From Climacium dendroides (lineage: Eukaryota > Streptophyta > Bryopsida > Hypnales > Climaciaceae): 64,000 nt of DNA. Location of the stretch: contig OX467092.1 of NCBI GenBank assembly GCA_950106755.1, forward strand, positions 4,774,001 through 4,838,000, in the 5' to 3' direction. The first letter of the stretch is position 1. Every line of letters begins with the position of its first letter. Positions 596-47,770 of this stretch are shown here, piece by piece. The notes beneath the pieces are model-generated. The model searched no databases. It had not been told where the DNA came from and worked only from the letters and a program-made list of their open reading frames with translations. Both the position numbers and the translations under genes were made by a program.

Positions 596-1390
596 CTATT
601 GTGTTGGCTTTACACTACTACGGGTGACCCTACTTCTACCAATTTTAGGTGTGATCTCTATAGCTTCAGATTCAGCCTTCTTACTATCATTTCTTCTATG
701 ATGGTTCTTCCGGCTCCCATCATCCTTTGCTTTTTGAGAAGGCTTCTTTTTTGATGGTTTTTTGATAATGGGATTGCTAAGACATGAATTAACAATTGGG
801 CAGACCTCAACAAGACTAATAGTCTTAGAACTAGGGGCATCTTCTATCAATGGTCCTGAGTCCTACTTCTTGCTAAAAGAATATCTATGTCTCTTATCTG
901 TGGCAGCTTCAGTTGTAGAGAATACATTGTTTTGTGGTAAATCGAGATCTAAGCTAATAATTTCCTGAACCCCATCATGTTCAACTTTTATACCTGAAAC
1001 ACAAGCCCATTGAACAAGTCCAATTTACTTGCATGTTTGTGCATGATCATGTTCAACACACATTTATAAAATGGAAGATCCATTACATGTAAATGGCAGC
1101 ACTATTGGATTCAGAATGATACCTTTGGATTGCTCAGTTGATTCAGTACCAATTGGAATCAATTCAACAATGGGGGGTACATCACTGCTGACCAAGGCTG
1201 CAATCTGAAGCACAACCGAATTCTTCACAGGCGATTTTTGGAGAAGGACGATCTTCACGCTCGATTTCTTGTGAGGAGACGAGATTGCTTCAGAGTTTTT
1301 GGATGAGGATTTCTTCACAAATGAATTCACTTCATCAGCTGCAGTCAAAGTAGTATAATTATCTTCTAGGGCCTTGGAAAGTACAGCCAT
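596..1390 (-). pseudogene. Decayed gene for an unrecognised lysine/serine-rich basic protein
   Basis: Two minus-strand exons can be read. The upstream one starts with ATG at 1390-1388 and reads MAVLSKALEDNYTTLTAADE and onward to about 1087, where a GTAATG could act as donor. After a short gap, a downstream exon begins behind an acceptor-like TTTCAG at 999-994. It runs about 130 codons to a TAG at about 596, with one internal TAG (AAG AAG TAG). The C-terminal half is rich in Lys, Arg and Ser (for example KKPSKKKPSQKAKDDGSRK) and ends in a basic RSRVTRSSVK tail, so the product looks like a small disordered, possibly nucleic-acid-binding protein. No known family was recognised. It has the same orientation as the RING-like gene at 2460-4466 and may belong to the same decayed element. 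The internal stop and uncertain splice make it a probable pseudogene. Confidence 0.45.
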
Positions 1391-1610
1391 TGTTGCGCCT
1401 ACAAATCAAGATTGGTTCTTTGTGCTTGAAGTATTGAGCCACAAGAACCAAGGTCACTTTGCTTCTGGGAGCCTAGTACTCACAAAGAACACACCAATCC
1501 AAAACCATGAGTTCATACACTTTTATGACTATGGACATTCAAAAAAAATTCTTGGAAAGCATGTCTACAAAATAACTAAACTATTCTAAGTATGATGAAT
1601 GCCATCAACT
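1391..1610. promoter_or_regulatory. Presumed 5' flank of the basic-protein gene
   Basis: This lies directly upstream of the ATG at 1390 on the minus strand. No TATA box or other motif stands out. The label rests on position only. Confidence 0.2.
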
Positions 1611-1619
1611 TCTCTTTCA

Positions 1620-2350
1620 TCCAGAAGCCAAGCACCCAGATCAAAAGCAATGATTGGCAATAAATTGACAAATTATCCAAGCATCCAAGCACCCAAACTA
1701 AAAGCAATGACCTAACAAAGCACCCCAAACACCTTCACTGGAAGCTAACCACACACAAAGCAACTTAAGTACCATGAGCGGAACTCACATATTACCAAAG
1801 TACCTTAAGTACCCTTGATACAAGAGCTAAATACACTAAGCACTTAGAGCATAAGTATTGAGTGCGTTAAGCACCCTAAACACACGTGGTGGACACAAAA
1901 GTACTAAAGTATAAGTATTCAAAGTAGAAAACACTCTCTGTACAATTTGTCAGCAAACCAAACATTCTAAGTGCAATTGGTAAGCACACAAAGCACCCTA
2001 AGCATACACGGACAACACACAATGTTCAATAAGTACGCATGTTAAGCACCCTAAGTGCACTAAGAAGAACTGCTGGAACTCCAAGGACACTAAGTAGAAA
2101 TGTTGAATTAAGTGTAACTGGTCATAATCCTAAGCACAATAACCAAAATCAACAAACACATAGTGCACTGAAAGCACAAAGTGCTCAATGAAGTAACAGA
2201 AAGTGCTTTTCACGCTTTGCAAAAGGACTTTGCAACCGTAATCAACAATGTACACATAAAAAACACCTCTATAACAGCACCGTAAGGCAAAGTTTCAAAC
2301 TCAGTAAGCACAAACAACATATAACCGACCAACTAGCACATAGCATATTA
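1620..2350. repeat. Degenerate repeat field built on an AAGCACCCTAAG-like motif
   Basis: Variants of AAGCACCCTAAG recur irregularly, for example near 1629, 1689, 1718, 1870, 1991 and 2045, together with AAGTAC and TAAGTGCAC forms. The spacing is uneven and the copies are diverged, so this is an old degenerate repeat rather than a clean satellite. It lies between two minus-strand pseudogenes and contains no reading frame. Confidence 0.5.
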
Positions 2351-2459
2351 CCAAGAAATGAAATAGCTGCAAAAATAAGTAACAAAACTTATGCTTATAG
2401 TTTGGTCCCATAAATCCGCTATCTTCTTGCAAGTTTAGTTTCAGATTTGAAACCACCTT

Positions 2460-4466
2460 CTATAGATATAGTGAAGTAGCCTTCTCTTGTAAATCTAGAT
2501 CCAAATCTCTGAAACCAAAGGAACGCCACCAATCCGGGTGAAATAACTCTCTACAAGTCACACATCTATTTTTCTTGCTACAAAGGCTAGTAATACAGAA
2601 AGGATGATACATATGCCTATAGGAAGCAACTACAATATTAAAAGCAGAAAAAAATTTATTGCAGAAGGAGCAAGGTTGGAGTTCAAAGTGAATATCATCC
2701 TTTAGAGTCTGGGTATAAAGAATTGGTTGTAGCCACATGCAGGCTCCTCCGCTTGCCTTCATTGCAACTATCTACTCCTTAATCGCATCTCTGGAACGTG
2801 CCAAGTCAGTCATCTCTCTTTGTAAAAGTTTGAAATCTGAATTGGTCTTCCAAAGATCAATCTCAACATTTTAGTAATTTTCTTCTCCTTGCACAGCATT
2901 CCTTTGGTTCTCTTCCAGAAAAAATTTAGCTATTTCTAACTTCCTAGCTATGCGATCTGCCGATCTTTGTCTGCTTTCAGAGTGTTCAACTAGAGAAAAA
3001 GACACTTGCTGTCCCCAATTGTAGACTCATTGCCTTGCGATGCCATTCCATAATCCGAATGGTGTGTCTTAGTCCAGAAAATGACTATCAACTATCAACC
3101 CCTAAACTGCAATCCCTCTAACGATTTGAAGATTTCACCCAATAAAACAAATCCATTGAAAACAAAGAAGCAAGGATGAAGACTCCTACCCTAATCCATA
3201 TACAAGGTGATGAATTTTGGTTTAGGGTCTAGAGTAATCCAAAACATGTCTTCATATGAAGAAAATTCTGGTGTTCACAATCTCAAGCAAGGGGTCTAAT
3301 ACAGGAGTGCAATTCAAGCACAATTTGCAAATTAGAAACCCTAAACCTGCAACAAACACCCCTCTGTGACTCCCAATGAGGCAAAAACTAAATTGTTCAT
3401 TGTATACCGTAACTACTGAACTCTAAACAAAACACCACATTCCCTCAAGAACCTGTAGAAAACAAAAAATCCAAAACCATGTAAAATGGTTTCAAAAAAG
3501 AGTATCGTGTGCTACTCACCGCTTGAATTGCAAGGGAGATTTCATTGTCCAAAGTTGACAACGTCGATTTGATGACCTTCATGCTATCCTTTGATTCCTT
3601 CGTTGCGCTCTTCTTGTCATCCATGTTGTATCGGAGACCAATGATTCTATCATCTTCTTTCCTCCAAGACTCGCTAAGGGACGAGACTTTGCTATTCGCG
3701 GATTTAAGCAACTGAACCTCCACCTTCAACACGTCTTCAACTGCTACAAGGTCAACTTCAAAATTAGGGTGCCTTTCTTGGGATAGAGTAGAGGTCAATC
3801 TGGATCGGTTTCTAGGCGCTCCCCTCTTCACGTTTCCGACCTTGGCAACTTGATTTGTCACAAGCTTCCTAGATTGAGTGGAAAATGAGTAAATTGCTAG
3901 ACTGTCGCCAGACCCTCCAGCGCCCGCTTCGGAACCAAAACCCTCACAATTTCCGAAGTCAGACAACCTACACTTGTCCAACTCTCGCTAGCATCGCTCT
4001 GCTTTCTCCCTCACCGTAGAAGCGGTCGCTATGGCCCAATCCATAGCTTCACCCTTGCACTCCAAAATGAATCCTTTGACTACCTACATCATGAACTCAT
4101 TGTTGGTAACATCCTCCGTCCCATAGATCTTAGAATACAAGCTGATGAGTTCGCATCTAGTCTCTGGATCCAACTTTGTGTTTGTTGTTGATATGTGTTC
4201 ATTTTTCCCCAAACCTCCTCTAAATCTTCTGCAATAACGGATGCAGTATCAAAGATAGATTTTGGATTTAAATCCATGCTCCGTAAACCCCTAACCTCTA
4301 CAAAAAATTTAGTGGTCTGCTCTCTAAACGAAGCCAACTCCACAAGCAAGTCTTGAATGGACTTCGGCTCTACTTTTGCTTTCATTCTATTACTACGATT
4401 TCTCTCAGAATTCTTCACGCTCAATGATTTTGGAGCGCTCTCCGCTACATGAATGCTACCCTCCAT
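2460..4466 (-). pseudogene. Decayed two-exon gene: coiled-coil protein with C-terminal RING-like zinc finger
   Basis: Exon 1 runs from ATG 4466 to about 3520, with donor GTGAGT at 3519-3514. Exon 2 runs from 3008, behind acceptor GGACAG, to about 2460; the intron is about 511 bp. Exon 1 encodes a Ser/Arg-rich N-terminus and then heptad-like, charged coiled-coil segments. Exon 2 adds another helical segment and ends in a zinc-finger-like module with CSFC, then HMYHPFC, then CVTC, then HPDWWRSFGF. That spacing is RING-like, but the position where I would expect a Cys before the HxxH part reads Tyr/Arg, so one metal ligand may be lost. In-frame stops lie at 4086-4084 (TAG), 3990-3988 (TAG), 2873-2871 (TAA) and 2774-2772 (TAG). 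A frameshift is needed near 4170-4200. I have the impression of similar 'HPxWWRS(F/W)G' finger proteins in repetitive plant families. A role in ubiquitin transfer is only possible. It is broken and not expected to make full-length protein. Confidence 0.6.
3009..3519 (-). other. Intron of the RING-like pseudogene
   Basis: The ends are canonical: GTGAGT donor after GCG on the minus strand at 3519 and an AG acceptor at 3010-3009. The reading frame closes on both sides. It holds nothing else recognisable. Confidence 0.5.
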
Positions 4467-4822
4467 TTGTTTCTTGCCAAAATAAACAACTCAAAGAGAA
4501 ACCCCAAATCTAAAAAAGGCAGCAATCACAAAGACCTCCCACAAACACCTTTGCACCTTTGCATTAACAAATCCCTAATCATACATTGGCAACGACAATT
4601 TCAATTCGCACCTCAATTGTCACAAGAATCATGAAACAATTGCCGCCGCAACAGCAAGCATCCTCAAGAAACTTTGCAAAACCCTAAGCCTACGGTTGAT
4701 CGATATGCGATGAACAACGACTCCCTCCTACCCCAGCAAAACCTTAGGCATGCATCCCTGCAAGAATTCAAAATCAACTAACAAGCGCTACTACGGGAAT
4801 TCACAACGCCCTAACAAGCAGG
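4467..4822 (-). promoter_or_regulatory. Presumed 5' leader/promoter of the RING-like gene
   Basis: It lies between the ATG at 4466 and the left end of the large TIR element at about 4823. On the minus strand it holds TAGGGTTTTGC and TTAGGGATTTG-type sequence, common in plant 5' leaders, and it is more GC-rich than its surroundings. No clear TATA box was seen. The transposon end lies only about 356 bp upstream of the start codon. Confidence 0.35.
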
Positions 4823-4890
4823 GTTGCTAAAGTATGAACAGGGAGCGATGAGAGTTGAGCGTTGAGCAATGAGTGTTGAGCATTGAGAAT
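4823..4890 (+). repeat. Left terminal inverted repeat of the large element
   Basis: It pairs with 15556-15625 in inverted orientation. The strongest block is GTTGAGCGTTGAGCAA at 4855-4870, facing TTGCTCAACGCTCAAC on the right side near 15579-15595. The arm itself is built of repeated GTTGAGC/GAATGAG-like words, so some pairing could come from this internal repetition. Confidence 0.65.
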
Positions 4891-4899
4891 TTTTTGAAA

Positions 4900-5419
4900 A
4901 ATTTGTGGAAAACCTATAATTTTTCACCATAAGGGTTTTTGGTCTATGGTTTATTATAAAAGCATAAAACTATAGATGCACTCAAAGAGGATGAATAGAG
5001 ATGAATGGAGATGAACAGAGTTGGATGAATTATTTTTTAGTTGACTTTATTGAATGAAATACATTTGTTCATGACATTGGATGAAAATGAGTTTGGATGA
5101 TTAATCAATTATTTGTGAAGTTCACCAAATTTATTTTTATGCTAACACCAACATTTACTATTTCTAATTATATGTTTTCATCAAAGAGAAGTACCATGTT
5201 GTTAATAGAAAAAAATAAATTCAATCCAAAAAAATTTCTACTAATTGACAACAATAACCATTATCTCTTGAAATAGATGCCCTTTTCACTACCACTTTAA
5301 AGATCACCAAAATGCAAAATAACTTAAGAATATGGTAAAGTGCAAGAATGTAGTGGCCCTTTTCTTCTCACTACATGACATTAAAAAATCAAGTAACAAC
5401 AATAGTCTTTAGAGCAAAA
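4900..5419. other. Subterminal AT-rich region, no gene
   Basis: This lies between the left TIR and the 3' end of the methyltransferase pseudogene. It holds a run of GATGAAT/GATGAAC words at 4990-5030 that has diverged counterparts inside the right end. Nothing else was recognised. Confidence 0.45.
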
Positions 5420-5834
5420 TCAATTTGACCCAATGCCACATATGGAAGAAGAATGATCACTGGCTTCACTACTATCACTATATGTAAGCCTTAGTGTCTC
5501 AAGATCTGCTTCAAGGTCTAAAAACTTCTTGACAGCAATATTGTATGAACGATGTTTGGCAATAGAAATAGGTGATGGAGCCTCTGCCATAGATGTCGCT
5601 AGAGTCTCAATGTAACATGGCAAACTCTTTGGACTAGGAGAAGGCGAGAGCACCAAATGCTTGAGAAGATTGTCTCTACAAGATGCAATGATTAAATAGG
5701 TAGAAACTTTGAATAAATTAAAAGACAATGCCTTTAGGATGATCAAAGGTTGAAGAAGACCTTCAAAAATCTCACTATCGCTCTCCAAGGCCACCAAATG
5801 ACGTCCAATGTTGCGGCATGCATGGATAGAGGCC
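5420..5834 (-). pseudogene. Exon 11: methyltransferase motif II and C-terminus
   Basis: Behind an AAG acceptor at 5837-5835 the frame, after one base shift, reads HACRNIGRHLVALESDSEIF. This corresponds to the strand after motif I and motif II (acidic residue at its end), as in 'GRxVIGxExD' of beta-class enzymes. The frame continues to a Ser/Pro-rich, acidic C-terminal tail (DSSEASDHSSSICGIGSN) and stops at TGA 5422-5420. Confidence 0.6.
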
Positions 5835-5927
5835 CTTGTTTATTGAATGCAATGTCATCAGTTGCACCAAATATGTTACATACAATGTAAAAATTATATG
5901 GTTTCAATAATAAAAAGTAAAAGGTAC

Positions 5928-6207
5928 CTGCAGATGCAAAACAATCCAATACCACATCACTAGGTTTTGGAAATGCCTCAACTAGTAGCTGTACAAATAG
6001 AGGGTCTTTCTCACGAGCACCTCTCCACGGAATTGTACCATTCATAAGCTGAGTCTGTAAGGAGGTGTAGTTGTGGAGAAGGTCAACTTCTTCAAGGTTT
6101 GTACCTGCATCACTAAGTTGTTGGTTTATAGTGATAGAAAATTTGAATTCCACCGATGTTTCCTCCCATTGTCTTCATATAAATAAGAGGATCCGAAAGC
6201 GCTGTGA
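5928..6207 (-). pseudogene. Exon 10: methyltransferase motifs X and I
   Basis: It starts behind TTGTAG with TALSDPLIYMKTMGGN in one frame, then a frameshift near 6150 leads to VEFKFSITINQQLSDAG and onward. PWRGAREKDPLFVQLLVEAF followed by PKPSDVVLDCFASAG matches the beta-class signature, motif X helix then 'GDxVLDPFxGSGTT' motif I that binds S-adenosylmethionine. The splice falls between the Gly and the expected GT of motif I. Confidence 0.65.
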
Positions 6208-6479
6208 CTACAAGGGATAAACAAGTATGACAATTAGTATTTGACAAATACAATTTTACTAGTACTATACCAAAATGTGGTAAAAAGAATCGCAGTCAAA
6301 ATTCATTGCAGTTTTTTTCCCACAGTGTTGTACATGTTGTTGACTATTGCTGCAACCTTCTTTTTTCATTTTCTAACTCAGTTTTTGAAATTTGAAGGCA
6401 TGTAATATACCAAAATGAAAACTTAAAAATACCTTTCCAATGGTATACTACAAATGAGAAAAAATTTAGTGAAACTCAC

Positions 6480-6830
6480 CCAACGTTTGGATTTTTTGAA
6501 ACTCGAAAGCTTCATCTCATTGACACCCTGCCAAGAGTCAAGTAGACGAAAACCATACGTATCGACACGCTCAAGGGTAAATTCCTTTATCTTACTATTC
6601 TTTGGATGGAACAACAAAATTGCTCCATCATCATGAATAAACTCCGAAGCAAATTCGAAGATAGGTTCAATAACCTCTTCTTGATTCAACACGTTCCAAG
6701 AAGGAATATTAGAAGGTGGAATGGAGACATTGGGGACCGGTAGTCCATCCGGGATATTGGCAACAATCAAGTCAAAGCATGCAATAGGGCTCACGGAGCC
6801 TCCAAGAGTTTGCACCCGGTCCCTACCAAC
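6480..6830 (-). pseudogene. Exon 9: methyltransferase motif IV region
   Basis: This is 117 uninterrupted codons between GTCAAG and GTGAGT. It contains FDLIVANIPDG, the place of motif IV (usual form D/N/S-P-P-Y/F/W, which flips the target base). Here the core reads N-I-P-D. The family's beta-strand/helix repeat follows: DDGAILLFHP, then VDTYGFRLLDSWQGVNEM. This is the best-preserved exon. If N-I-P-D is ancestral, catalysis would be atypical or absent; if not, the site has mutated in this copy. Confidence 0.6.
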
Positions 6831-6951
6831 CTTGACAATAAAAAATGTACACTATAAGTTAGATGTATGAATGAATTGCAATGTCATGCTAATAACTTAA
6901 TGTGAAATGAAATAAATTAATCATAACAAGGCTAGAGAACGTAGACCTTAC

Positions 6952-7964
6952 CTTTTGGGTAAAATCAAGCATTTGATTCCATATTGATGCATTGTTCCCC
7001 GTCTTCTCCTTAACATTGAGCATTGCAGAAATTGATGATGGTAGAATTAGAACTTGAGGCTCAATATCGTGTCTGTCAGGTTGAATTGCGGATCTAGCAA
7101 TGTATTCTGATGAAGCAAAGGCATCTGTAGTAATAGACATGAGAGTTGTAGGGAAATGAGACCGAGCTGTATCAATGACTTCCAAAGTGGTAGGAGGCAC
7201 AAGAGAAGGAGGAGGTACACAAATAGAAGCTGGAATAGATGAAGAAGGGGTGTCGTCTTTCGTGGCTGTCTCTTTTGTCGTCTTCTTTATAGCCTTCTTC
7301 TCCTTTGGCTTACACCCCTTCTTCAGTAGTGGAACTTCTTAAACCTCCTCTTCATCAAGAGACTCCTCCGGTAAACTTGCCTTGGGATGGTCTTTGGCAA
7401 CCTCCTTTTCAAATGCTTTAAGTGTTGGGGCAAAACTCTTGGACACTCTAGATACCAAGGACATGCTTGGAGCTCTTGAATATAAAACCTTCGCTGTTGA
7501 GTCAAAGTGAACATACAACCCTTCAAGGAAGTATCAAGCCATCCTCTAAACAACTTAGGCATGAACTTTCGCTCCATTCTACCTTTTAGAATGAGCTCTC
7601 GCTTGAAATATTTGTAATCATAGAATATGTGTGATTATTACAATGAAAAAAATGCACATGCATTTTTGATGACTTTGTGAAATAATCAAAATTTACAAAA
7701 CTAAAGGCAACTAAAATAAAAGATATACCTATATAGAATCCTCCTTGTAGCCACATCTGTGCCTTCTTGGTCTTTGAAAAAAGTAGATCGTGAATACGAA
7801 GAGTCCTTCTTGAACAACCACCAAAAAGCATGATCCCACAACACAATGTGCCATGTCTCCACATAATCTCTAATGGAATCCAACTCATCATTGGCATTCC
7901 ATTGAACTACAATATTCTCAGACTTGATGATGTTTGTGAATTCTACTTTGGCTACCTCCTCCAA
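6952..7964 (-). pseudogene. Exons 7-8 of the methyltransferase gene (helical and disordered linker)
   Basis: Exon 7 (7964-7729) is open throughout and encodes LEEVAKVEFTNIIKSENIVV and onward to RRILY. Exon 8 (about 7597-6952) has TAG, TAA and TGA codons at places where Gln, Arg or Trp codons are one transition away. The clearest is TAA at 7341-7339. Its frame includes AKVLYSRAPSMSLVSRVSKS, a Lys/Thr-rich linker and SAMLNVKEKTGNNASIWNQM before a GTAAGG donor. A second frame is open in part of the exon but carries no family signal. No domain was recognised. Confidence 0.5.
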
Positions 7965-8326
7965 CTACAAGAAAATTCAAAAGTATAAGTACCAAGACAT
8001 TATGAAGGCAAAGCATATCATGGTACTATAATACACCACTATACCAAAGTGTGGTAAGAAGGAAACACAATCAAAACATACCATTGGAAAGGTATTACAC
8101 ACTATGAAATTCCAAAAATTCAATTCAGAAATTGAAAAAACAGGCTGCAGCTGTAGTTAACAACATGTACAGCATTGTGGAGAAAAGAACCGTAGTGAAT
8201 TTTGACTGTGTTTCCTTCTTACCACACTTTGGTATAGCACAACTATAAGATAAAAATCAAAATATTTATAAACTTGTAAAATGTAAATTTTTTTCATATG
8301 AATGAAAAAGAAAGTTGATTACATAC

Positions 8327-9124
8327 CTCAGCCCAAAATGAGGCCTTACAAAGCCAAGTCTCTAAAGTCATTGTGTTGAAACCAAGGGCGGGGAATCTGA
8401 AACCCTCCCTAGAAGTCTCACTTGAATTCCACCACCTAAGCCAACAAACCTTGTAGTTTGGTTGAACTTGGCATGTAGAAATCCTTTCAAGTTTCTCCAA
8501 GGACATCTCGGACTTCTCGTTGGCTCTGTAATGCAAGTCAATCTGAAATTTGAAAAGACATAAGTATAGTAAAAATTAAGTCCAAAAATAATCATATAAA
8601 TAAATAAAAAAGCAAGTAGGCATAATAATATGCCTCTTCTAGGAATCCAATGCCGTTTTTTGGATTTGCAATGGCGGATTGGCAGATTGTTTATCAAACT
8701 CCGTTTGAAATCCTTTGATAGCTGTAGTGGCGGCTTGAGTCATGGCCTCATGAACACCCTTTGGAGTTTGTTCTTCCAACCGTGTCTTCTCATAGAAAGT
8801 TCACACAACCACATCTGAAACAGTAGCAATTTCTTGCTGCATATGAAAAACATGAACTTGAAATCAGTATAAAATGAATTTTAAAAATCACAACAATTGA
8901 ATGAAAAAATATTACAAACAAAAGATACTCACCCGATGAAGGAATTGTATGAAGACGGGAGATGTCAATGGATACCAAGCACCTGTTAGCTTTCTAGCCT
9001 CACATTTCTTGTAATCTTCATCACTTAGAAGCCCCTTGAATTCTTCCAATTGCAAGTTGTCATAGGTACTCATTCTATGCAATTGTTGAACCAAGTTGCT
9101 CTTGACATGGGAGTGCTCTGTAGA
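8327..9124 (-). pseudogene. Exons 4-6 of the methyltransferase gene (linker region)
   Basis: Exon 4 (to 8933, donor GTGAGT) encodes STEHSHVKSNLVQQLHRMST and onward to FLHR. Exon 5 (8836-8634) encodes QEIATVSDVVV, a TGA, then TFYEKTRLEEQTPKGVHEAM and onward with a late TAG; its donor reads GC instead of GT. Exon 6 (8542-8327) is 72 uninterrupted codons including VCWLRWWNSSETSREGFRFP and a GTATGT donor. These link the ParB-like part to the catalytic part. The segments are Trp- and charge-rich and match no family I can name. Confidence 0.5.
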
Positions 9125-9246
9125 CTTGCAAATATCAATGAAAATAGAATGTAAAATGAATGAATGTAAAAGCATAAAATATTACAATACAATTGAAGAA
9201 ACGGTAAAATAAAATAAATATTGATTCAACAAACATTGGAACTCAC

Positions 9247-9830
9247 CAATTGATGTCATTCATAACCTCCAATAGAATGCATGTACAGCCTTCGGACACC
9301 AATAACATACAATCAATAGGCAAATTCCACTTGCGATCATGACAATGCATTTTGTAGATGTAAGCATATCAGGCCACCAATCTATAATTGGCATCCCATA
9401 CGAAAAACATGTGATTTGACAAGTGTGAGATGGTTGGTTGAGAACACAACCAACACTCAAATTGGTCATTCTCGTGTATCTAGTGTTCATTCCATGTCTC
9501 TACGATCTCAGGTGTCACTAACTTGGAAGCTCCCTTGTCATTTTTTGTTGACACGTAAAGTACACAATCACCTTGTCGATATCCATGAACAAACTCAACC
9601 TCCAATCATTTCACTTGACTTTGGAGGAGAGGACAGACCAATAGAAGTCTAATCATCCTGCACAAAGGAATATCAAATCAAGATCCTGGACCACCACCAT
9701 TGAAGAGCATGCTGTTGATGACTGCATTGGAGTCCAATTTCTAACCATTTCGCACATCTTCTTCCACCTCATCTACCGTTCACTCTTCAAAAACTTGATC
9801 AACAGTTTGAATATCAACGGTACTATCAAC
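9247..9830 (-). pseudogene. Exon 3: ParB-like domain with internal stops
   Basis: After the acceptor at 9831 the frame is open apart from TGA (9782-9780), TAG (9743-9741), TGA (9680-9678) and others. A one-base shift near 9596-9603 restores a long frame with EFVHGYRQGDCVLYVSTKND, then LVTPEIVETWNEH, then HMFFVWDANYRLVA. The last matches the ParB/sulfiredoxin-fold box, hydrophobic-hydrophobic-x-D-G-x-x-R-h-x-A, with Gly replaced by Ala. It is preceded by the expected 'region plus hydrophobic helix' layout. ParB-like domains fused to DNA methyltransferases are known in bacteria and phages. The exon ends at donor GTGAGT (9246-9241). ParB assignment rests on this one box plus the fusion context. 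Confidence 0.5.
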
Positions 9831-9968
9831 CTACAATCAATAGGAAATTGAACCCAAGTTATAGTTAACATTAAGAAGTCATGGAAATGAAAACAAATAC
9901 GACAACTGTAATACAAAATCAATGATCATAGAATTTATTATACAAACATAAATAGAAATGCATCTAAC

Positions 9969-10061
9969 CTGAGGATTGCCAACCACAAGCTGAGAATCAT
10001 CATTGGTGACTAGCTCCAAGCGCTCCATTTGTGGAAGCCTTCCATAGATGTCCATAAAGCT
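9969..10061 (-). pseudogene. Exon 2 of the methyltransferase gene
   Basis: It spans exactly 93 nt between CAAAACAG and GTTAGATG and encodes SFMDIYGRLPQMERLELVTN and onward to GNPQ without a stop. Both boundaries are phase 0, so it joins exon 1 and exon 3 in frame. The function of this short segment is unknown. Confidence 0.55.
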
Positions 10062-10119
10062 CTGTTTTGAAAAAACAAGAATAAGTATTTTTTACATCTT
10101 TATTAAAAATCAGCCTAAG

Positions 10120-11065
10120 TAGTGACCGTATTAACGAGGTTACATTTTCAACCCAAAGCAAGCATCGGGAAAATACATTTTGAACCTTAGACTTAAGTTT
10201 AGATTCTCTAAGTGAGTACTTAGAATACATTGGCAGAAGTGACCTTGTTAACGAGGTCTGTTTTGCCAATGTATTTCAATAGTGTAAAGAAAGAACAATG
10301 AAGAAGGCTAAAGTGAAAAACTGAACCATGTAAGTGATCCCTAAAAAATCTGAAGAAATAAGCCTCGTCAACGAGGCCACTTTTTCCAATGTATTTCAGT
10401 AGTGAGAAGGCAAAGAAATGAAGCCTAAAGTGAAAACTGAATTCTCTTAGTAATCTCTGTAAACCCTTGGAAAAGTGACCTTGATAACGAGGTCACATTT
10501 TGCAATCCATTTCAGTAGTCTTTTAGAAAAAACCGAAGCCGAAAATTAAAACTGAATTGTCTTTGTCATCTCTCTAAACCCTTGGAAAAGTGACCTTGTT
10601 AACGAGGTCACATTTTGCAATCCATTTCAGCAGTCTCTTAGAGAAAACTAAAGCCTAAAATGAAAACTAAACTATCTTTGTCACCTCTCTAAACCTTGGA
10701 AAAGTGACCTTGTTGACGAGATCACATTTTGCAATTGATTTCAGCAGTCCTTACAACAAAAAGTGAAATCTGAATCCTAAACTAAAATTATCTTAGTGAT
10801 TTCAGAAATCTTGGAAAAGTGATCTCGTTGACGAGGTCATGTTTTCTAATTTAATTCAACAATCCGTAGAAAGAATTTGAAATTATGCATCAAAATTAGA
10901 AATCGTCTTAGTAAGACTGTAAAGAACCCAAGAATGTAACCTTGTCAACGAGGTCAAGTTTCAAACCCTGAAATTGCAATCTTCTGAAAATCATACATCA
11001 AAACTGGAACTGTTTGAGTGATCTCTTAAATCCTTGAAAAAGTGACCTCGTCCACGAGGTCAAGT
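10120..11065. repeat. Array of nine about 115-bp repeats, each centred on a near-palindrome
   Basis: Copies of GTGACCTTGTTAACGAGGTC (and variants) begin at about 10122, 10239, 10359, 10475, 10590, 10704, 10819, 10936 and 11042. The spacing is about 117, 120, 116, 115, 114, 115, 117 and 106 bp. The core is a 22-bp near-perfect inverted repeat, GTGACCTyGTTnACGAGGTCAC. The flanks also repeat (ACCTTGGAAAA before, CATTTTGCAATCCATTTCAG after). The array fills intron 1 of the methyltransferase gene. Regular spacing of palindromes looks like a binding-site array for a dimeric protein, for example the ParB-like part, which normally recognises palindromic parS-type sites. That link is inference. Confidence 0.75.
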
Positions 11066-11100
11066 TTACAACCTGAAAAAGGGGTGTTCAGAAATGACAC

Positions 11101-11226
11101 CTCTTGAGGATTTCTAGGAACTTGAACTTCCATCACATCGCCGCCTTCGATGGTGTTGGAGACACCCTCCCCACCGTCGCCGCGTGCCTCTCCATCCTTG
11201 TGCAGCATGCCACTCCGTAAGTTCAT
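11101..11226 (-). pseudogene. Exon 1 of the methyltransferase gene (start exon)
   Basis: ATG at 11226-11224 opens 42 codons beginning MNLRSGMLHKDGEARGDGGE. The exon ends at ...NPQE followed by donor GTGTCA at 11100. It is phase 0, matching the phase-0 acceptor of the next exon at 10061. It is markedly more GC-rich than its surroundings, as plant first exons often are. No stop interrupts it. A start one Met further on (...GMLHK) is also possible. Confidence 0.5.
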
Positions 11227-11775
11227 TGCGGAAGCAACCCTAAGCCAAAACACAAAAGTGGAGAAGGAAGAAAACTACACCAAAGCAAGCCGAAGATCAG
11301 CCCATGGAGTTGTTCTTTGGTTTCAAAAAAAAAAAAAGGAAGAGATTGGTAGATTTAGGCCAAAGGAATCTTTCTAATAAAATCTGCAATTTCATAGATT
11401 TTTGGTCCAAATTTTTGGAGCATATAGATTATAACCCCAAAAGTAACCCCAATTTTTTCCAAATTTTTTGAAGTTACGAGGAATTTTACAAAAATCGGCA
11501 AAGTCTTCTAAAAATATTTGGATAAGATTTGGCTGAAAAATCAGCTGATTCTGAAGATTTTAGAAAAGATTCCAAGATGCTAAATTAATTTAGGCTGTAG
11601 AACATTCAAAAATGCTCCATTTTTGCGTGCAATATACCGTTGGAATTGTCTTTTCAAAATACACGAAATGAAGTTTGGTGTCAAATTCACCTCTAATAAA
11701 AAATATTCAACACATACAATCAACTCCTCACAGCATAATGGCTCCAGTCCTACCAATGAATACATAAACTTACGA
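11227..11775. promoter_or_regulatory. Region between the methyltransferase start and the next minus-strand gene
   Basis: It starts as GC-richer sequence (11227-11300, likely 5' leader of the methyltransferase gene) and becomes AT-rich with a poly-A run at 11326-11338. It should contain the methyltransferase promoter. No certain TATA box was identified. A reading frame at 11580-11828 overlaps the end of the neighbouring exon but has no family support. Confidence 0.35.
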
Positions 11776-12390
11776 ACTTTGTGCTGATCACTAGGGACAT
11801 GTTCTTCTCTAGCATACTCAGTTGGCATACGTCCACTTCAATTTCATCAACAGTGTCAAGCTTGGCAATATCCATTCCTTCACTATTTTGTGTCAAACTA
11901 AACTCGTGTTCAAAAGGTGCATCTTCAATCCCATCATCCTCATACGACAAGGTCCAAACAATGCTACTAATCTCACCACCATTGGATTTCTGTAAGCGCC
12001 TAAACATCTTCGATCTTTCTAGCTGTTTCTTGCTAGAGAAGCAAAGTCCTGCCTTACGTCTCTTTCTATAAGAACCCTTCGGCATCCCTCCAACCAAAAA
12101 ATCCAAGAAAGCGGACTCGACTTTCTCATTAGCAATACCGCAATCTCTCCGATATATAACACTCTTCAAGTCTAATGAATGTATTCTCATCCAATTCATT
12201 ATAACTTCTCCAAATAAAACATCTACTGACCAGGATATAAATGGTCAATAAGATCATCCGTTCTTCACTCAACTGCTTCATAATCACTCTCATATTTGAA
12301 TATACCACCACTACATTGGAAGAGGCCTCCATTTGAGGCCTTCTAATCACCCTTCAATGTGAAAGTGGCGCTATGTACAATTCATTATTC
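11776..12390 (-). pseudogene. Decayed gene for an unrecognised protein inside the large element
   Basis: The minus-strand frame includes GGLFQCSGGIFKYESDYEAV, an in-frame TGA, then a one-base shift near 12230. A long open stretch follows: DVLFGEVIMNWMRIHSLDLK, then VESAFLDFLVGGMPKGSYRK, ending at ...SLVISTKF before a GTAAGT donor at about 11775. The middle is basic (SYRKRRKAG, SSKKQLERSK) and the end acidic (YEDDGIEDAPFEHEF). No family was recognised. It is transcribed divergently from the transposase pseudogene that begins about 350 bp away and points the same way as the methyltransferase. It may be a further cargo gene of the element or an upstream part of a longer gene. Confidence is in coding character, not function. 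Confidence 0.45.
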
Positions 12391-12728
12391 CAAAGATCGG
12401 GTACTGGTAACTAAATTTAAAAAATTCAATTGTTGGCCGTGCATTAAATCTTTAAATATGGAACCTTCAATTCAAATTTCAAATTTCAAATTACCAAAAT
12501 CCTACATAAAAAAGGTCAAATCCATGTCCACTACCTCTTTGTCTTTTACCTATTCTCGCTAGAAACTTTTGGGATCCTACCAATAGTTCCATGTAAGCAA
12601 TGATAGTCTGTAGGAATTTGTAGATTGTAAACACATTCTAATATGGACATGGCACTTGTTTATGGTGACGAGTCCAGCATTCAATTTTTTTTCCTTGTAG
12701 CGATGGCGGTAGTACATGGGTATCTGCT
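12391..12728. other. Divergent intergenic region between minus-strand cargo gene and transposase
   Basis: It is AT-rich and holds no stable reading frame. A TTTTTTTTCCTTGTAG at 12684-12698 looks like a splice acceptor (polypyrimidine tract plus AG) and may precede the first readable transposase exon. A divergent promoter may be present, but no TATA box was identified with confidence. Confidence 0.3.
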
Positions 12729-14520
12729 TTGATTCTCAATGTACGCTTTAATTTAGAGTTGTCGTCTCTATGGGTGGAAGAAGAGCTATTTCATTCTCAG
12801 GGACTTCAAGTCACATCTACAGTCATGCTATTCAAGATCAAAACAAACTCCGGAGGTGGCTGGAAGCTTTTTCCAAGCAAGTATCATGCTTTTGGCACTC
12901 TTAGGTTCACTAGATTGATGTCAACTGAAATACTCACACTTGGGTCTGCTACTTCTACTGTTCAAATGTCTTATGGAACTCGTGTGAAAGTAGAGTCTTC
13001 GAGTCATAGCCATATTGATCTTACAGAGTCTTCCGACGATGATGCTACTATTTTCATTGATGCAAGTCGCAAGCTACCTAGCATATCCAAAAAATGTACA
13101 GACACTATTCAAAGTATGGACAACATTCAACATGATAGCATGTTGCATCCTTCAATTCAACAAAGGGTATCCAAATTTGTGAGCGTCTCAGAATGCCTTA
13201 AAGATATGCAAAGTCGTCCGTGTGCATGAAATGAATTGAAGTTTATAAACCTCAGTACACTTTGTTGTGAATCTGTACGACATCTTCCTCAATCATTCAA
13301 TGGAGACATTCTTTTTGAATTACCTCTTCTTCTTTCTTCGACATCTCCTTCTGGGAGTCGACCTAATTCAACTTCCTCATCTTCTGTAGGTCGGCAACTA
13401 GAAGGCATGGATCGTAAATTTGATGGCCATAATTGGACACACACACTACAAACATCGCAAACGACTTTGGCCTAAAGTTCCGCTATTCTTTGTGTGTGGG
13501 CCACCTAGTTTGCGAGTACAAAGCGTGCCCTAGACTACGCCGAAGTGTCAGCAAAAATGAGACAGAATGGGAGGGGTCGTCACCTAGCGTCTTCCTTGTG
13601 AGAGAGCAGTCTCCATCAAAGTCCACTCTTGTATGTCAAATATGCAAAGAAGTTCATTTCTACAAAGCTTCATACCCTTGTCGCATGTATAGGGTCTTGA
13701 ACTCTTTAGGCCTTCCCATAGCTTGTATCCACGTTGGAATTCATGATCATCCTGTGGGTAGAGGCATCTGTCGTGATTATGTTGATTGAACAACATTCTT
13801 GATTGGTGAAGAGGCATCAAGAATGCCTACAGCAACAAATTCGGCCATACAACTTGCTACTAGCAAGGAATTCCTTGCATATGAATTGTTTGGAGAGGAG
13901 CTCGGAGAGGAGGGACTACAAGGTGACCAAAAGCCACTTCACGGAGAGGCACTTGAGGCAGTTATGGATAAATTTTGAATACTCAATTCACCGAGTATTT
14001 AGAATATTGTCTCTAATTTCCGTCATAGTGCAAGTGGGGGACCCATTGACAACATTATCTCATTAAAAATGAAAAATACTTATTCATTTATTCAAGATAG
14101 TGTATTTCCAGGCCAAGGTAAAGATAAGATTTACCTTTCTAAGATGTCTAAGGAAGGCCCGAGAAGTGGAGTGGATTTGATAAGGCGAATGCAACCGAGG
14201 GAAGACTTGCAAAATTCTTGGTGCATGTTTGATTATGTAAAGAGGGTGAAAGGATGCACGTCAATGGTTGCCCACGTATATGACCCTCAATTTTGTCAGG
14301 TTCAAACTATTTGTGTTTGTGACATGATGAGCGAGGATGCTGTGAGCCAAGAACAGATGTAGAGATCCCTTAACTCAGTCAAGGCGCGTCACGGGGTTTC
14401 TTCTCCACAGTTCAAGGGTTTTATGGCTGACAATGTGATGGCAAACTGGCATGCTGTTCGGGTGGTGTATGGAAGTGGCAACAAGCAAGAGTACTAGGTT
14501 GAAAAACTACTTTTGTTTAG
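12729..14520 (+). pseudogene. Transposase pseudogene (MULE-like DDE family, tentative)
   Basis: The N-terminal part (12729-13226) ends in a stop and includes HIDLTESSDDD, a SUMO-interaction-like motif. The part at 13236-13475 holds FNGDILFELP and GMDRKFDGHNWTHT. After a shift at the ACACACAC run (about 13440), one frame runs from 13433 to about 14520, with stops at 13787, 13976, about 14000, 14360 and 14495. It contains a Cys/His region (CVGHLVCEYKACP, then CQICKEVHFYKASYPCRMY, then IHVGIHDHPVGRG). A DDE-like core follows: HVYDPQFCQVQTICVCDM (Asp codon 14282-14284) and FKGFMADNVMANWHAVRVVY (Asp codon 14429-14431). Downstream sequence is AT-rich, so the region expected to hold C..H and the catalytic Glu is missing. 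The order matches Mutator-like transposases in outline. I also recognise this wording from repetitive plant proteins but cannot name the family with certainty. Confidence 0.6.
13012..13050 (+). other. SUMO-interaction-like acidic motif in the transposase N-terminus
   Basis: The residues HIDLTESSDDD match the pattern hydrophobic-D-L-T followed by Ser and acidic residues, seen in SUMO-interacting motifs. It lies before the zinc-binding-like Cys/His part. Functional meaning is inference. Confidence 0.35.
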
Positions 14521-15550
14521 AAGTGGATATAGAATGATCCATTGAAGTAGTTGATACGTATGCTAAATCCTAATTAGTTTAAGTTGGAAATAGTTTGTAG
14601 CAACTTACAGACAACTAAAATGATTTGTAAAACCATAAACATAACAAAAATACATTTAAAAAGGCTAAATTTAGCCAATAAAACATTGCAGAAAGAAATA
14701 TTACAATTCTACAAATGAATCTTGAAAGTACTACTACATTCTAAGAAGAACTTATTATAATAAAACAACATTATACAACTGATTGTTACATATCTCTAAA
14801 TGAACCTTCTAAGAGTTTCTTAAAATAGCCTCACCCATAACTATTATTGTACCTATAACCATCACTTCCTTAAATCTTGGAAAATCTTGGGGAGTAGGAA
14901 GATGTATTTGCAAGAATGTACCTCATCTAAAAATTTGACGTAAGTGGTGGTTTTAAGTCAATGTACAATTGGCTCTTTTAAAAATTCAAAACTTATTCTT
15001 ACAATGTCCAAAAAATAAATTAAAAAATGCATTGAAATTCTTTTTCTCTTATAAGTACAATTAAGTAATTTTTTGGATGTCTATTAATCAACAATATATC
15101 CCAAACCCCTTATTTTGACAGTTATAGGTGCTTCTACCTTAGTTACAAAAAACACAACCAACCTCAGATTAGTTAACAAAGTTTTAAAGTCAACAATGCA
15201 AACTTCAAAAATTTTGTAAATTATTATTTTTACAAGGAAAAAAGTTCATTTTTTAAGACATATTACAAATATGTAAAGAAAATTTTGGGAGGATGGATGA
15301 TAAATGGATGACATGAATGAAGCTCATTCATTCATCAAATCTATGGTTGAAAATCATCTACTTGTGGGAAATGCTAGTCTTCATTCATGCCCATTCATGC
15401 AACATTTGAATGTAAAATTCATTATTTTCAATAAATAAAAATTGCAATTTCTTGGATTTATTTTTTTATTTTTGGTTTCTGACATTTCTATATTTAGATC
15501 TGACAACCCTATTTATTACTCTGACATGTCTATTTTTAATAAAATTCCTC
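14521..15550. other. AT-rich region between transposase remnant and right TIR
   Basis: No reading frame or gene was seen. ATGAATG/CATTCAT words at 15290-15410 mirror GATGAAT words inside the left end and support the idea of subterminal repeats. The transposase C-terminus is absent here. Confidence 0.4.
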
Positions 15551-15555
15551 ATAAT

Positions 15556-15625
15556 GAACGCTCAAATCTAATTGCTCGTTGCTCAACGCTCAACGTTCAT
15601 TGCTCCCCGCTCACACTCTAACACC
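15556..15625 (-). repeat. Right terminal inverted repeat of the large element
   Basis: The inward-reading strand, starting GGTGTTAGAGTGTGAGCG, pairs with 4823 onward. The GTTGAGCGTTGAGCAA block is shared exactly or nearly so. The boundary at 15625 is where similarity to the left end stops. Confidence 0.6.
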
Positions 15626-16380
15626 ATTGCCTTGACAAGTACGACAACCATGCTATCCATCCAACTGTCACCAAAGTAGTCCAGTAAAGCACCTCCTTGA
15701 ATGGTGCAAGTGGTTCCTATTAGTCTGTTTTGACCCATGACCATTGTTGGAGAAGATTTCCTTGAAGCCTAGACGTGGAAAAAAGTGGTCCTAAGTGTTT
15801 TGAGTCATTTTCCGGAGGATTTGAGTGAGATTCAAATCTCTAAAGTTGGTACTAGTAAGGTGGGCCAAATTCTTGTCCGTGGAAGTGGTGCTAACCCACC
15901 ATATGGCAAAGCTATCACTTGAAGACAAATTTCCCATAGTATTGTGCTTCATGTATGCCAAGTTAAAGTCCCAAAAAGTCCTACATGGCAGAGCTATTGA
16001 CTTAGGATTAACTTTTAGTAATAGCATTTTGGGGTTAAGCCCCCAAACGACAAAGCTTTGTCTGTCTTAAATTTTCCAATTTGATTTGCTAATAAAGGGT
16101 CCCCATAGGAGACCCATAGGTTTGGTTTTAAATCCCAAGTTTGAAATTTAAAAAGCCAAAAATTGTGGCGAGCAACGGCCAAAATTTGGATCAATTTGGA
16201 CCAATTTCAGCAAACCAGCAAGGTTGGAAGATCAAGCCAGCAAAGTCGAACCAGCCAGCAAGGTCGAAACCAACCAACAAGGTTGCTTGACTGAACTAGA
16301 TGGTTACTTGATTTACCAATTAGTTGCTTGCTTGAGCTAGCATATGGATCCACATACATCACAGCTTATTAAGCCAAAAT
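15626..16380. repeat. Unassigned repeat-like DNA with a small CCAGCAAGGTCGAA array
   Basis: Most of this stretch has no gene. At about 16205-16290 there are four diverged units of CCAGCAAGGT(T/C)G(G)AA, 14-22 bp each. The moderately GC-rich part around 15640-16080 resembles retroelement LTR or leader sequence, but no ends could be defined. Confidence 0.35.
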
Positions 16381-46690: not shown

Positions 46691-47770
46691 AATGTGCTTT
46701 AGAGTCAAGGAAAAGATAATGTACACCTTTTCAAGATGCTCTTAACCCCTAAAGTCCCATTGGTCTTACTGTAGCCAAAATTCAACCTTAGGTAGGCTCA
46801 TATACTCTCAATATTCATTGTAATTTTTTGAAATTTTTGTGAATCTTGAAAAAAAATAAGCTTCACAGGAATATAATTTTATTTCAATAGGTGCTTGGGA
46901 ACAAAATTTATAGCACAATTAGCCAAAAACAAAGGTTGGCTGACAACATTTTTAAAATCAAAAAAAGTCAAAAAAAAATTAAATTTTTTTCCTAAAATAT
47001 TATATTTTTTTCTACTTGTGAAGCTTTGATTCATTCTATTTGGATTGGTGATGAGAAAGTTATGGACAATCATGTTTTTAGGGCAATTTAAGCATCTTCT
47101 TCAAAATACAACTTTTAGTATTCATTTTTTAATATAATTTTAACTTTTATCCAAAAAATTTGTTTGATAGGGTTTAGTATTTTTGCTAGAACAATCTATT
47201 TAGTAGGATTATTGTGTTCAATTCCATCTTAGAGATATTAACAATTTAGTTTTTCTTTCAATCTTGGACCTACTTCTACTTAACAATTTTTTAAACAATG
47301 AAAATCAAGTGTGTGTTTTTTTGAATTTTTTTTCCTAGATATTGAACTCAATTCTTTAGCATAATAAATTTTAAATTCAAAGTGTGTAGTGCAAAAGATT
47401 TCCACAAATGGTGGTCAAAGTCATTTGAAATTATAGGCTAAATTTTTTTTAAAACTAATTTTTTTCAACTGTGATTGCTAATACCTTCCAATATGTATGG
47501 TCAAACTTCATAAAATTTTTATCACATGATCTCAGACAAGTAAAGTACAAGATCCTATGGTTAGATTCTATAAAAAAAAAATAATCTATTTTCTTGGACA
47601 ATTGTAGCAAAAATGGCAATTTTCAATCTTTTTTCGATTGAAAAATGGCCTTGGGACTTTTGGGGTTAAGGGGGCTTGAGAGTGGAATGGATTTGATCCA
47701 TCAGATGCAACAAGGTGGTGATCTTGAGAATGCGTGGTTGATGTTTGATCATGCAAAGTACCATGATTAC
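46690..47770 (+). pseudogene. Second transposase remnant, split by TTAA element C
   Basis: The left part (46701-46741, AGTCAAGGAAAAGATAATG and onward) matches 14109-14145. The right part (47670-47766) encodes ESGMDLIHQMQQGGDLENAW, then LMFDHAK, matching RSGVDLIRRMQPREDLQNSW, then CMFDYVK of the transposase at 14163-14250. The two parts would be adjacent without the inserted element. Only this short stretch survives. Confidence 0.7.
46742..47669 (+). mobile_element. TTAA-flanked TIR element, copy C, inserted in a transposase remnant
   Basis: TTAA at 46742-46745 and 47666-47669 bounds CCCCTAAAGTCCCATTGG and, on the other strand, CCCCAAAAGTCCCAAGGCC. The flanking transposase sequence joins smoothly when the element and one TTAA are removed. 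This shows that TTAA is the duplicated target. It is about 920 bp and non-coding. Confidence 0.8.

Follow-up and report, generated by a model that had tools for sequence, protein, structure and literature searches.

A MULE-like transposon of Climacium dendroides with a methyltransferase-like, probably non-catalytic accessory protein and palindrome arrays beside its gene

The DNA analyzed here, called the window throughout, is a stretch of 64,000 nucleotides from contig OX467092.1 of Climacium dendroides. The window contains a decayed copy of a transposon with terminal inverted repeats (TIRs) that resembles the Mutator-like elements (MULEs), and in this copy a broken transposase gene lies divergent to an intron-rich gene for a methyltransferase-like protein (Table 1). 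The reading favored here, tentatively, is that of a MULE-like element whose accessory protein is non-catalytic, would bind the element's own palindromes and would counter silencing in the manner of VANC.

The eleven minus-strand exons, read from 11226 to 5420, were reproduced as an earlier note on this DNA had given them. The window copy is a pseudogene, with the stops and frame changes entered in Table 1, and the gene itself is real and backed by comparison. A scan of prokaryote assemblies with an exon-10 alignment found two contigs, L006 (CADCWO010000134.1, 3.1 kb, a partial gene) and L007 (CADCWO010000058.1, 4.7 kb); the model of L007 has seven exons and an open frame of 1136 residues, its first exon being our own choice. 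Because this open homologue can be aligned over most of its length and the places of the introns agree, the eleven-exon model goes beyond chance. Introns were found at common places in L007 and the window at E3/E4, E4/E5, E5/E6, E6/E7 and E10/E11, the junctions being matched by eye, and this support does not extend to exons 1 and 2. Both contigs have spliceosomal introns, yet they are filed under a cyanobacterial metagenome-assembled genome of GTDB, and they are probably plant, perhaps moss, contamination of it. The protein is under strong constraint in this pair: the ratio of nonsynonymous to synonymous substitution (dN/dS) is 0.107 (dS 0.305, 876 codons), and 0.143 in the methyltransferase part. 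The first scan of genome contigs, with exon 9, gave no match, L006 and L007 coming from the exon-10 scan, and viral contigs gave no match to exon 9, the transposase, the exon-10 alignment or L007 exon 5.

Exon 9 was also used to search the genome (412.6 Mb, 123 contigs), which returned 848 candidates; 150 were scored and all 150 were significant. Exon 9 was free of stops in 116 of the scored matches (counted by hand). The window clade accounts for 27 of the scored rows, at 59-100% identity. The families read were the window clade (the window copy and W2), A (A1 and A2), B and C. A1 (contig C38) and A2 (C35) have common ends and are 99.3-99.4% identical in two aligned parts (13.2 and 7.8 kb). 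A1 also contains some 2.2 kb near the left end (L055, local 5657-7880) with no counterpart in A2, perhaps a nested insertion. Both family-A elements (L051 on C38, L053 on C35) also contain a citrate synthase-like gene, on the minus strand and upstream of the methyltransferase-like gene; its C-terminal piece in A1 matches Pfam PF00285 (4.7e-9), its N-terminal piece has no match there, and the gene seems to have been taken up by the transposon and copied along with it. Among 5.8 billion proteins, exon 9 had 11 relatives, all of exon size and on contigs between 0.55 and 18 kb long, and a mixed query turned up five for exon 10 and none for exon 6. The full 720-residue spliced query found no match among the same proteins, which is probably explained by the exon size of the open reading frames (ORFs) that represent the relatives there.

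The limits of the element follow from copy W2 (contig C1), whose alignment with the window, at 87-95% in the main pieces, begins at 4818 and ends at 15630. Both ends are common to the two copies, and W2 is flanked by an exact 10-bp target duplication, CGTCTCCTAG. A1 and A2 have exact 10-bp duplications as well (GTGGTAATTC and GACTGAGGTC). The window flanks permit other pairings, and CCCTAACAAG/CCTTGACAAG was chosen because it agrees with the ends of W2. Thus, TIRs occur together with a duplication of the 8-11 bp given for Mutator-like elements in excerpts of PMC6446971, exactly 10 bp in W2, A1 and A2 and matching at 8 of 10 positions in the window; the words 'moss', 'bryophyte' and 'methyltransferase' are all absent from that text. 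The transposase adjoins the methyltransferase-like gene in the window, W2, A1/A2, B and C, that is, in the four families examined. The window transposase is 84.7% identical to that of W2 over 339 residues, 43.7% to that of family A over 343 residues, 46.5% to that of B and 43.3% to that of C over the 245 residues fetched, and about 2 kb of the W2 transposase region (W2 3356-5319) is absent from the window copy. The common ends in two copies, the 10-bp duplications and the adjoining transposase bear out the claim of the earlier note that the gene lies in a TIR mobile element.

Profile comparison indicates that the C-terminal domain of the protein is a descendant of a beta-class N6/N4 DNA methyltransferase. 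The spliced C-terminal part matches Pfam PF01555 (N6_N4_Mtase) at E 9.9e-5 over profile positions 35-217 of 221, scoring as a single sequence 22.8 bits, under the gathering score of 26.7, and it matches DpnA in PDB at 5.5e-4. With a profile built from four members (W2, A2, L007 and L006), DpnA was matched over motifs X, I and II (7.4e-6), and the match to CcrM (8.6e-4) ran from motif IV to motif II. Homology to PF01555 and the motif order IV-X-I of the beta class were therefore found, the latter as the earlier note had read it. In addition, P0012, an exon-10 relative on its own contig, matches PF01555 at 1.8e-4, so that this result is independent of the window splicing. Two further exon-10 relatives gave E 0.2 (P0014) and nothing (P0016) in Pfam, and L007 alone had no methyltransferase match there. 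The best tblastn matches to phage and plasmid reached only E 0.01 and 0.004, and the comparison by profile (hhalign) with eight phage fusions gave weak scores, E 0.009 at a probability of 4% and E 0.025 at 2%. Direct transfer from a prokaryote or phage, which the earlier note had supposed, is unproven from these comparisons.

The catalytic motif points to a fold without its chemistry. Motif IV was readable in 27 of the 30 fetched loci (26 places, as L043 and L045 overlap), and PP[YFW] occurred in none of these 27 loci of the genome. [DNS]PP[YFW] was found in neither of the two foreign copies, L006 and L007, both of which have D-V-P-E, and in none of the nine metagenome-type ORFs that reach motif IV (of 11), one of which has a deletion there. 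Open loci mostly have D-I-P-D or D-V-P-E and decayed loci vary; in the CcrM alignment DPPY stands opposite d-v-P-e. D-[IV]-P-[DE] is without the first of the two prolines and without the aromatic residue. The S-adenosylmethionine motif I is commonly D-x-x-A-[SA]-[TA]-G instead of FxGxG, its last glycine being retained in open copies along with the acidic residue of motif II. In the rotifer enzyme N4CMT, replacement of the Ser and Tyr of SPPY abolished the addition of N4-methylcytosine (4mC), according to excerpts of PMC8885841. Given the degenerate motif IV and this mutant result, the fold would have been kept and the chemistry probably lost, and the domain is thus conserved but probably not catalytic. 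The active N4/N6 writer of the earlier note was not borne out: no copy read has [DNS]PP[YFW], and the intact copies have D-[IV]-P-[DE]. AlphaFold2 on exon 9 gave nothing usable (predicted local distance difference test, pLDDT, 51).

The N-terminal part is marked by a second conserved domain. Exon 3 of W2, L007, A2, B and C has PLCR, VR and GY in common and an invariant DGNHR..AW box. To the eye this order of motifs resembles ParB, and the kinship is a lead that is unproven from sequence. Pfam, NCBIfam and PDB were searched with the domain and gave no hit to ParB. Against 12 ParB sequences of phages and archaeal viruses, hhalign placed mainly the DGNHR box on the GHxR box at E 0.12; with inserted columns cut out the value was 0.034, and three of 200 column shuffles scored equally high. 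ParB membership, tried by Pfam, NCBIfam, a PDB profile and hhalign, was not accepted. Exon 6 had been considered as the ParB-like box and was dropped when a later alignment pointed to exon 3; for exons 6-7, Pfam, NCBIfam and PHROGs gave no hit to ParB. Of the fusion that the earlier note had described, the methyltransferase half thus gained profile matches (9.9e-5; DpnA 7.4e-6) and the ParB half gained none in the libraries, and it is uncertain which stretch was meant by its ParB-like box, a conserved domain being present in exon 3. AlphaFold2 on the DGNHR exon of two sequences also gave nothing usable (pLDDT 32).

Palindromes are multiplied beside this gene. Intron 1 of the window copy has eight of the ten sites with at most one mismatch to CTCG-N4-CGAG found in the 64-kb window, three exact and five with one C-to-T change, in a 115-bp tandem repeat; the changes are as expected of decay. 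Three exact sites were observed in the window against 0.03 expected. W2 has nine exact sites in a tandem array of TGACCTCGTCAACGAGGTCA, and seven of the intervals between them measure 115 bp. The family-A stretch L051 has five exact sites against 0.06 expected, and in family A a 107-bp array with CTCGGGACCGAG follows the presumed first exon. In family B, CATTCGGCGCCGAATG recurs in 121-bp units, and 24 of 25 TCG-N4-CGA sites in 24.9 kb fall within 3.8 kb, from the transposase to the DGNHR exon. In L007, CTCGGATCCGAG forms part of longer palindromes (positions 25, 131 and 347) that precede the modeled start codon, and L007 has three exact CTCG-N4-CGAG sites against 0.01 expected. In three of the four families of the genome and in the foreign homologue L007, the DGNHR exon is thus preceded by an array. 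The unit sequences differ by family, and the TCG-N4-CGA core and the position upstream of the DGNHR exon are common. For this wider core, 200 first-order simulated sequences per stretch served as the control: four sites were observed in the window element (simulated mean 0.3, largest 2), nine in W2 (largest 2) and ten in B (largest 4). One-mismatch versions of the palindrome, CTGGTATGCGAG and CTCGTATACTAG, occur at the ends of family A.

Table 1. Features of the element and of the methyltransferase-like gene in the window
Feature	Position	Strand	Remarks
MULE-like TIR element, decayed copy	4819..15629		10.8 kb; from alignment with copy W2
Left TIR	4819..4904	+	64 of 89 aligned positions equal to right end
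Right TIR	15542..15629	-	Pairs with left end
Left target-site duplication CCCTAACAAG	4809..4818		8/10 identical to right flank
Right target-site duplication CCTTGACAAG	15630..15639		8/10 against left CCCTAACAAG
Broken transposase gene	12669..14497	+	Divergent to methyltransferase-like gene; related to W2 and family A
Intron-1 array	10244..11058		Eight CTCG-N4-CGAG sites, 106-120 bp apart
Exon 1 (MNLRSGM...)	11073..11226	-	Reading only; no homologue compared
Exon 2	9969..10061	-	Reading only
Exon 3	9247..9830	-	Conserved IPLCR...DGNHR domain, here DANYR; six stops
Exon 4	8933..9124	-	Reading; L007 comparison
Exon 5	8634..8836	-	Reading; two stops
Exon 6	8327..8542	-	Reading; L007 comparison
Exon 7	7729..7964	-	Reading; L007 comparison
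Exon 8	6952..7616	-	Charged linker; one stop, frame change
Exon 9	6481..6830	-	Motif IV of the methyltransferase: N-I-P-D in the window, D-[IV]-P-[DE] where intact
Exon 10	5928..6207	-	Motif X and motif I (DCFASAG); frame change
Exon 11	5420..5821	-	Motif II (GRHLVALESDSEIF) and tail

Several other features were seen in and around the element. Foldbacks like those of miniature inverted-repeat transposable elements lie in two introns, at 6254-6407 and 8039-8237 (38-nt arms, 97% complementary), and W2 has similar foldbacks at matching intron places, one of them a 357-bp palindrome (97%). Another gene lies to the left of the element, its ORFs spread over 596-4490 on the minus strand; part of it resembles a coiled coil, and a RING/FCS-like zinc finger is weakly indicated (best Pfam E 0.033). 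A short second transposase-related fragment lies at 47678-47758 (56% over 27 residues, E 9e-6).

In the favored reading, the core of the lineage would be two genes, the transposase and a protein of about 1,140 residues made up of the N-terminal DGNHR domain, which may be ParB-like, a middle region, a charged linker and the C-terminal methyltransferase-derived domain. The protein would bind the palindromes sequence-specifically and without catalysis, the methyltransferase fold acting as a reader or clamp. Such binding would allow the element to recognize its own copies, and through self-recognition their promoters would stay open despite host silencing, in the way that VANC works on VANDAL elements. 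A conserved, non-catalytic fold that binds DNA and is encoded beside a multiplied palindrome is what is expected of a protein that recognizes its own element. The management of silencing proposed in the earlier note is kept as a hypothesis, by way of DNA binding and not of methylation, and that interpretation as a whole is partly supported.

A number of results weigh against this reading. Palindrome binding is a prediction from sequence. The one family-C copy (L060) shows two isolated sites in place of an array, and family B is devoid of CTCG-N4-CGAG even when one mismatch is allowed. TCG-N4-CGA was picked as the wider core after family B had been seen, and its simulated control is less strict for A (9 observed; mean 1.9, largest 7) and L007 (3 observed; mean 0.6, largest 3); family C has 2 where the largest simulated count is 3. 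Within the window clade, exon-9 dN/dS is 0.27-0.73 in five pairs, which indicates that part of the clade decays neutrally; one family-A pair gave 0.18, and three of the nine exon-9 pairs were unusable, probably through the wrong strand. Exon-3 dN/dS is 0.40 for W2 and the window and 0.19, with dS saturated, for W2 and C, two further pairs not being computable. Stops lie in or next to exon 3 in four of the six genome copies read (six in the window, one each in A1, B and C, none in W2 and A2), and the A1 transposase reading contains stops as well. These values come from one genome and one further source, L006/L007. The motif-IV half of the methyltransferase-derived domain alone also matches an unrelated epimerase (7.9e-4). 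MULE membership rests on the duplication length and on the C..H and SWIM-like cysteines noted by eye in the transposase. A Pfam scan of the window and A1 transposases gave no match, the MULE transposase domain included; since the duplication length fits and the transposase has no Pfam match, the element is called MULE-like and not MULE. The ends were determined for the window clade and family A.

The same data bear on three other explanations. The protein might be a helper in transposition or maintenance, binding the palindromes and possibly the ends for complex assembly or for parS-like copy management, with no role in silencing. The alignment of the DGNHR box with the phage GHxR box, the one-mismatch palindromes at the family-A ends and the transposase adjacent in each family examined speak for such a helper; the arrays, however, lie upstream of the DGNHR exon and not at the ends, and the ParB kinship is without profile support, and this explanation is considered rather unlikely. 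An active N4-cytosine/N6-adenine methyltransferase with an unusual catalytic motif, marking the element's own DNA, would agree with the strong constraint in the foreign pair and with the conserved fold, motif order, last motif I glycine and acidic motif II residue, and rotifer N4CMT marks transposons and tandem repeats (excerpts of PMC8885841). D-[IV]-P-[DE] without its first proline and aromatic residue, set beside the inactive SPPY mutant, makes this improbable.

A captured host gene carried as a passenger without function is very improbable. Elements of this kind do seem to capture genes, as the citrate synthase-like gene in both family-A copies suggests, but the methyltransferase-like gene and the transposase occur together in four families and the dN/dS of the foreign pair is low. 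As a history of the favored accessory protein, it is possible, though doubtful, that a transposon of early-diverging plants turned a prokaryote-type methyltransferase, perhaps with a ParB-like partner, into a non-catalytic self-recognizer that coevolves with palindromic tandem arrays next to its own coding exons and defeats host silencing, a second and independent VANC-like invention.

Among the closest known systems are the VANDAL elements of Arabidopsis and their VANC proteins, for which excerpts of PMC5735166 describe Mutator-type elements with an extra gene beside the transposase and a family-specific motif. VANC motifs accumulate as tandem repeats, VANC21 introns included, and the protein and its motif change together (same excerpts). 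However, the motif here is palindromic where that of VANC is one-directional, and binding here is only predicted; Pfam scans found no VANC-type domain, VANC sequences themselves not being compared. DpnA, CcrM and MboIIA (PF01555) have the motif order IV-X-I-II and detectable homology, but the plant protein is without [DNS]PP[YFW], has lost one motif I glycine, and has a large N-terminal part and an intron-rich gene inside a transposon. Phage ParB-methyltransferase fusions, examples of which are annotated as ParB or DNA methyltransferase, likewise have an N-terminal domain ahead of the methyltransferase; the plant domain is not provably ParB, has an insertion of about 45 residues before DGNHR, and is separated from the second domain by hundreds of residues. 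Bdelloid rotifer N4CMT and the Marchantia 4mC methyltransferase are bacterial-type amino-methyltransferases in eukaryotes, but in excerpts of PMC8885841 they are described as recruited genes, and N4CMT has SPPY and is active.

Mobile elements with a methyltransferase domain also include the DIRS retrotransposons, which have a tyrosine recombinase and are retroelements, whereas the element here is a TIR DNA transposon. Searches of an open-licence library, a scope outside which subscription papers and preprints lie, showed no title or abstract on an element of this kind. The element offers a testable module of protein plus site, and the plant transposon that carries this module is abundant and has recent copies. 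It also shows that 4mC or N6-methyladenine need not follow from the presence of a methyltransferase-like gene in a plant. If the binding of the arrays is true, anti-silencing by transposable elements would have arisen at least two times, from different proteins.

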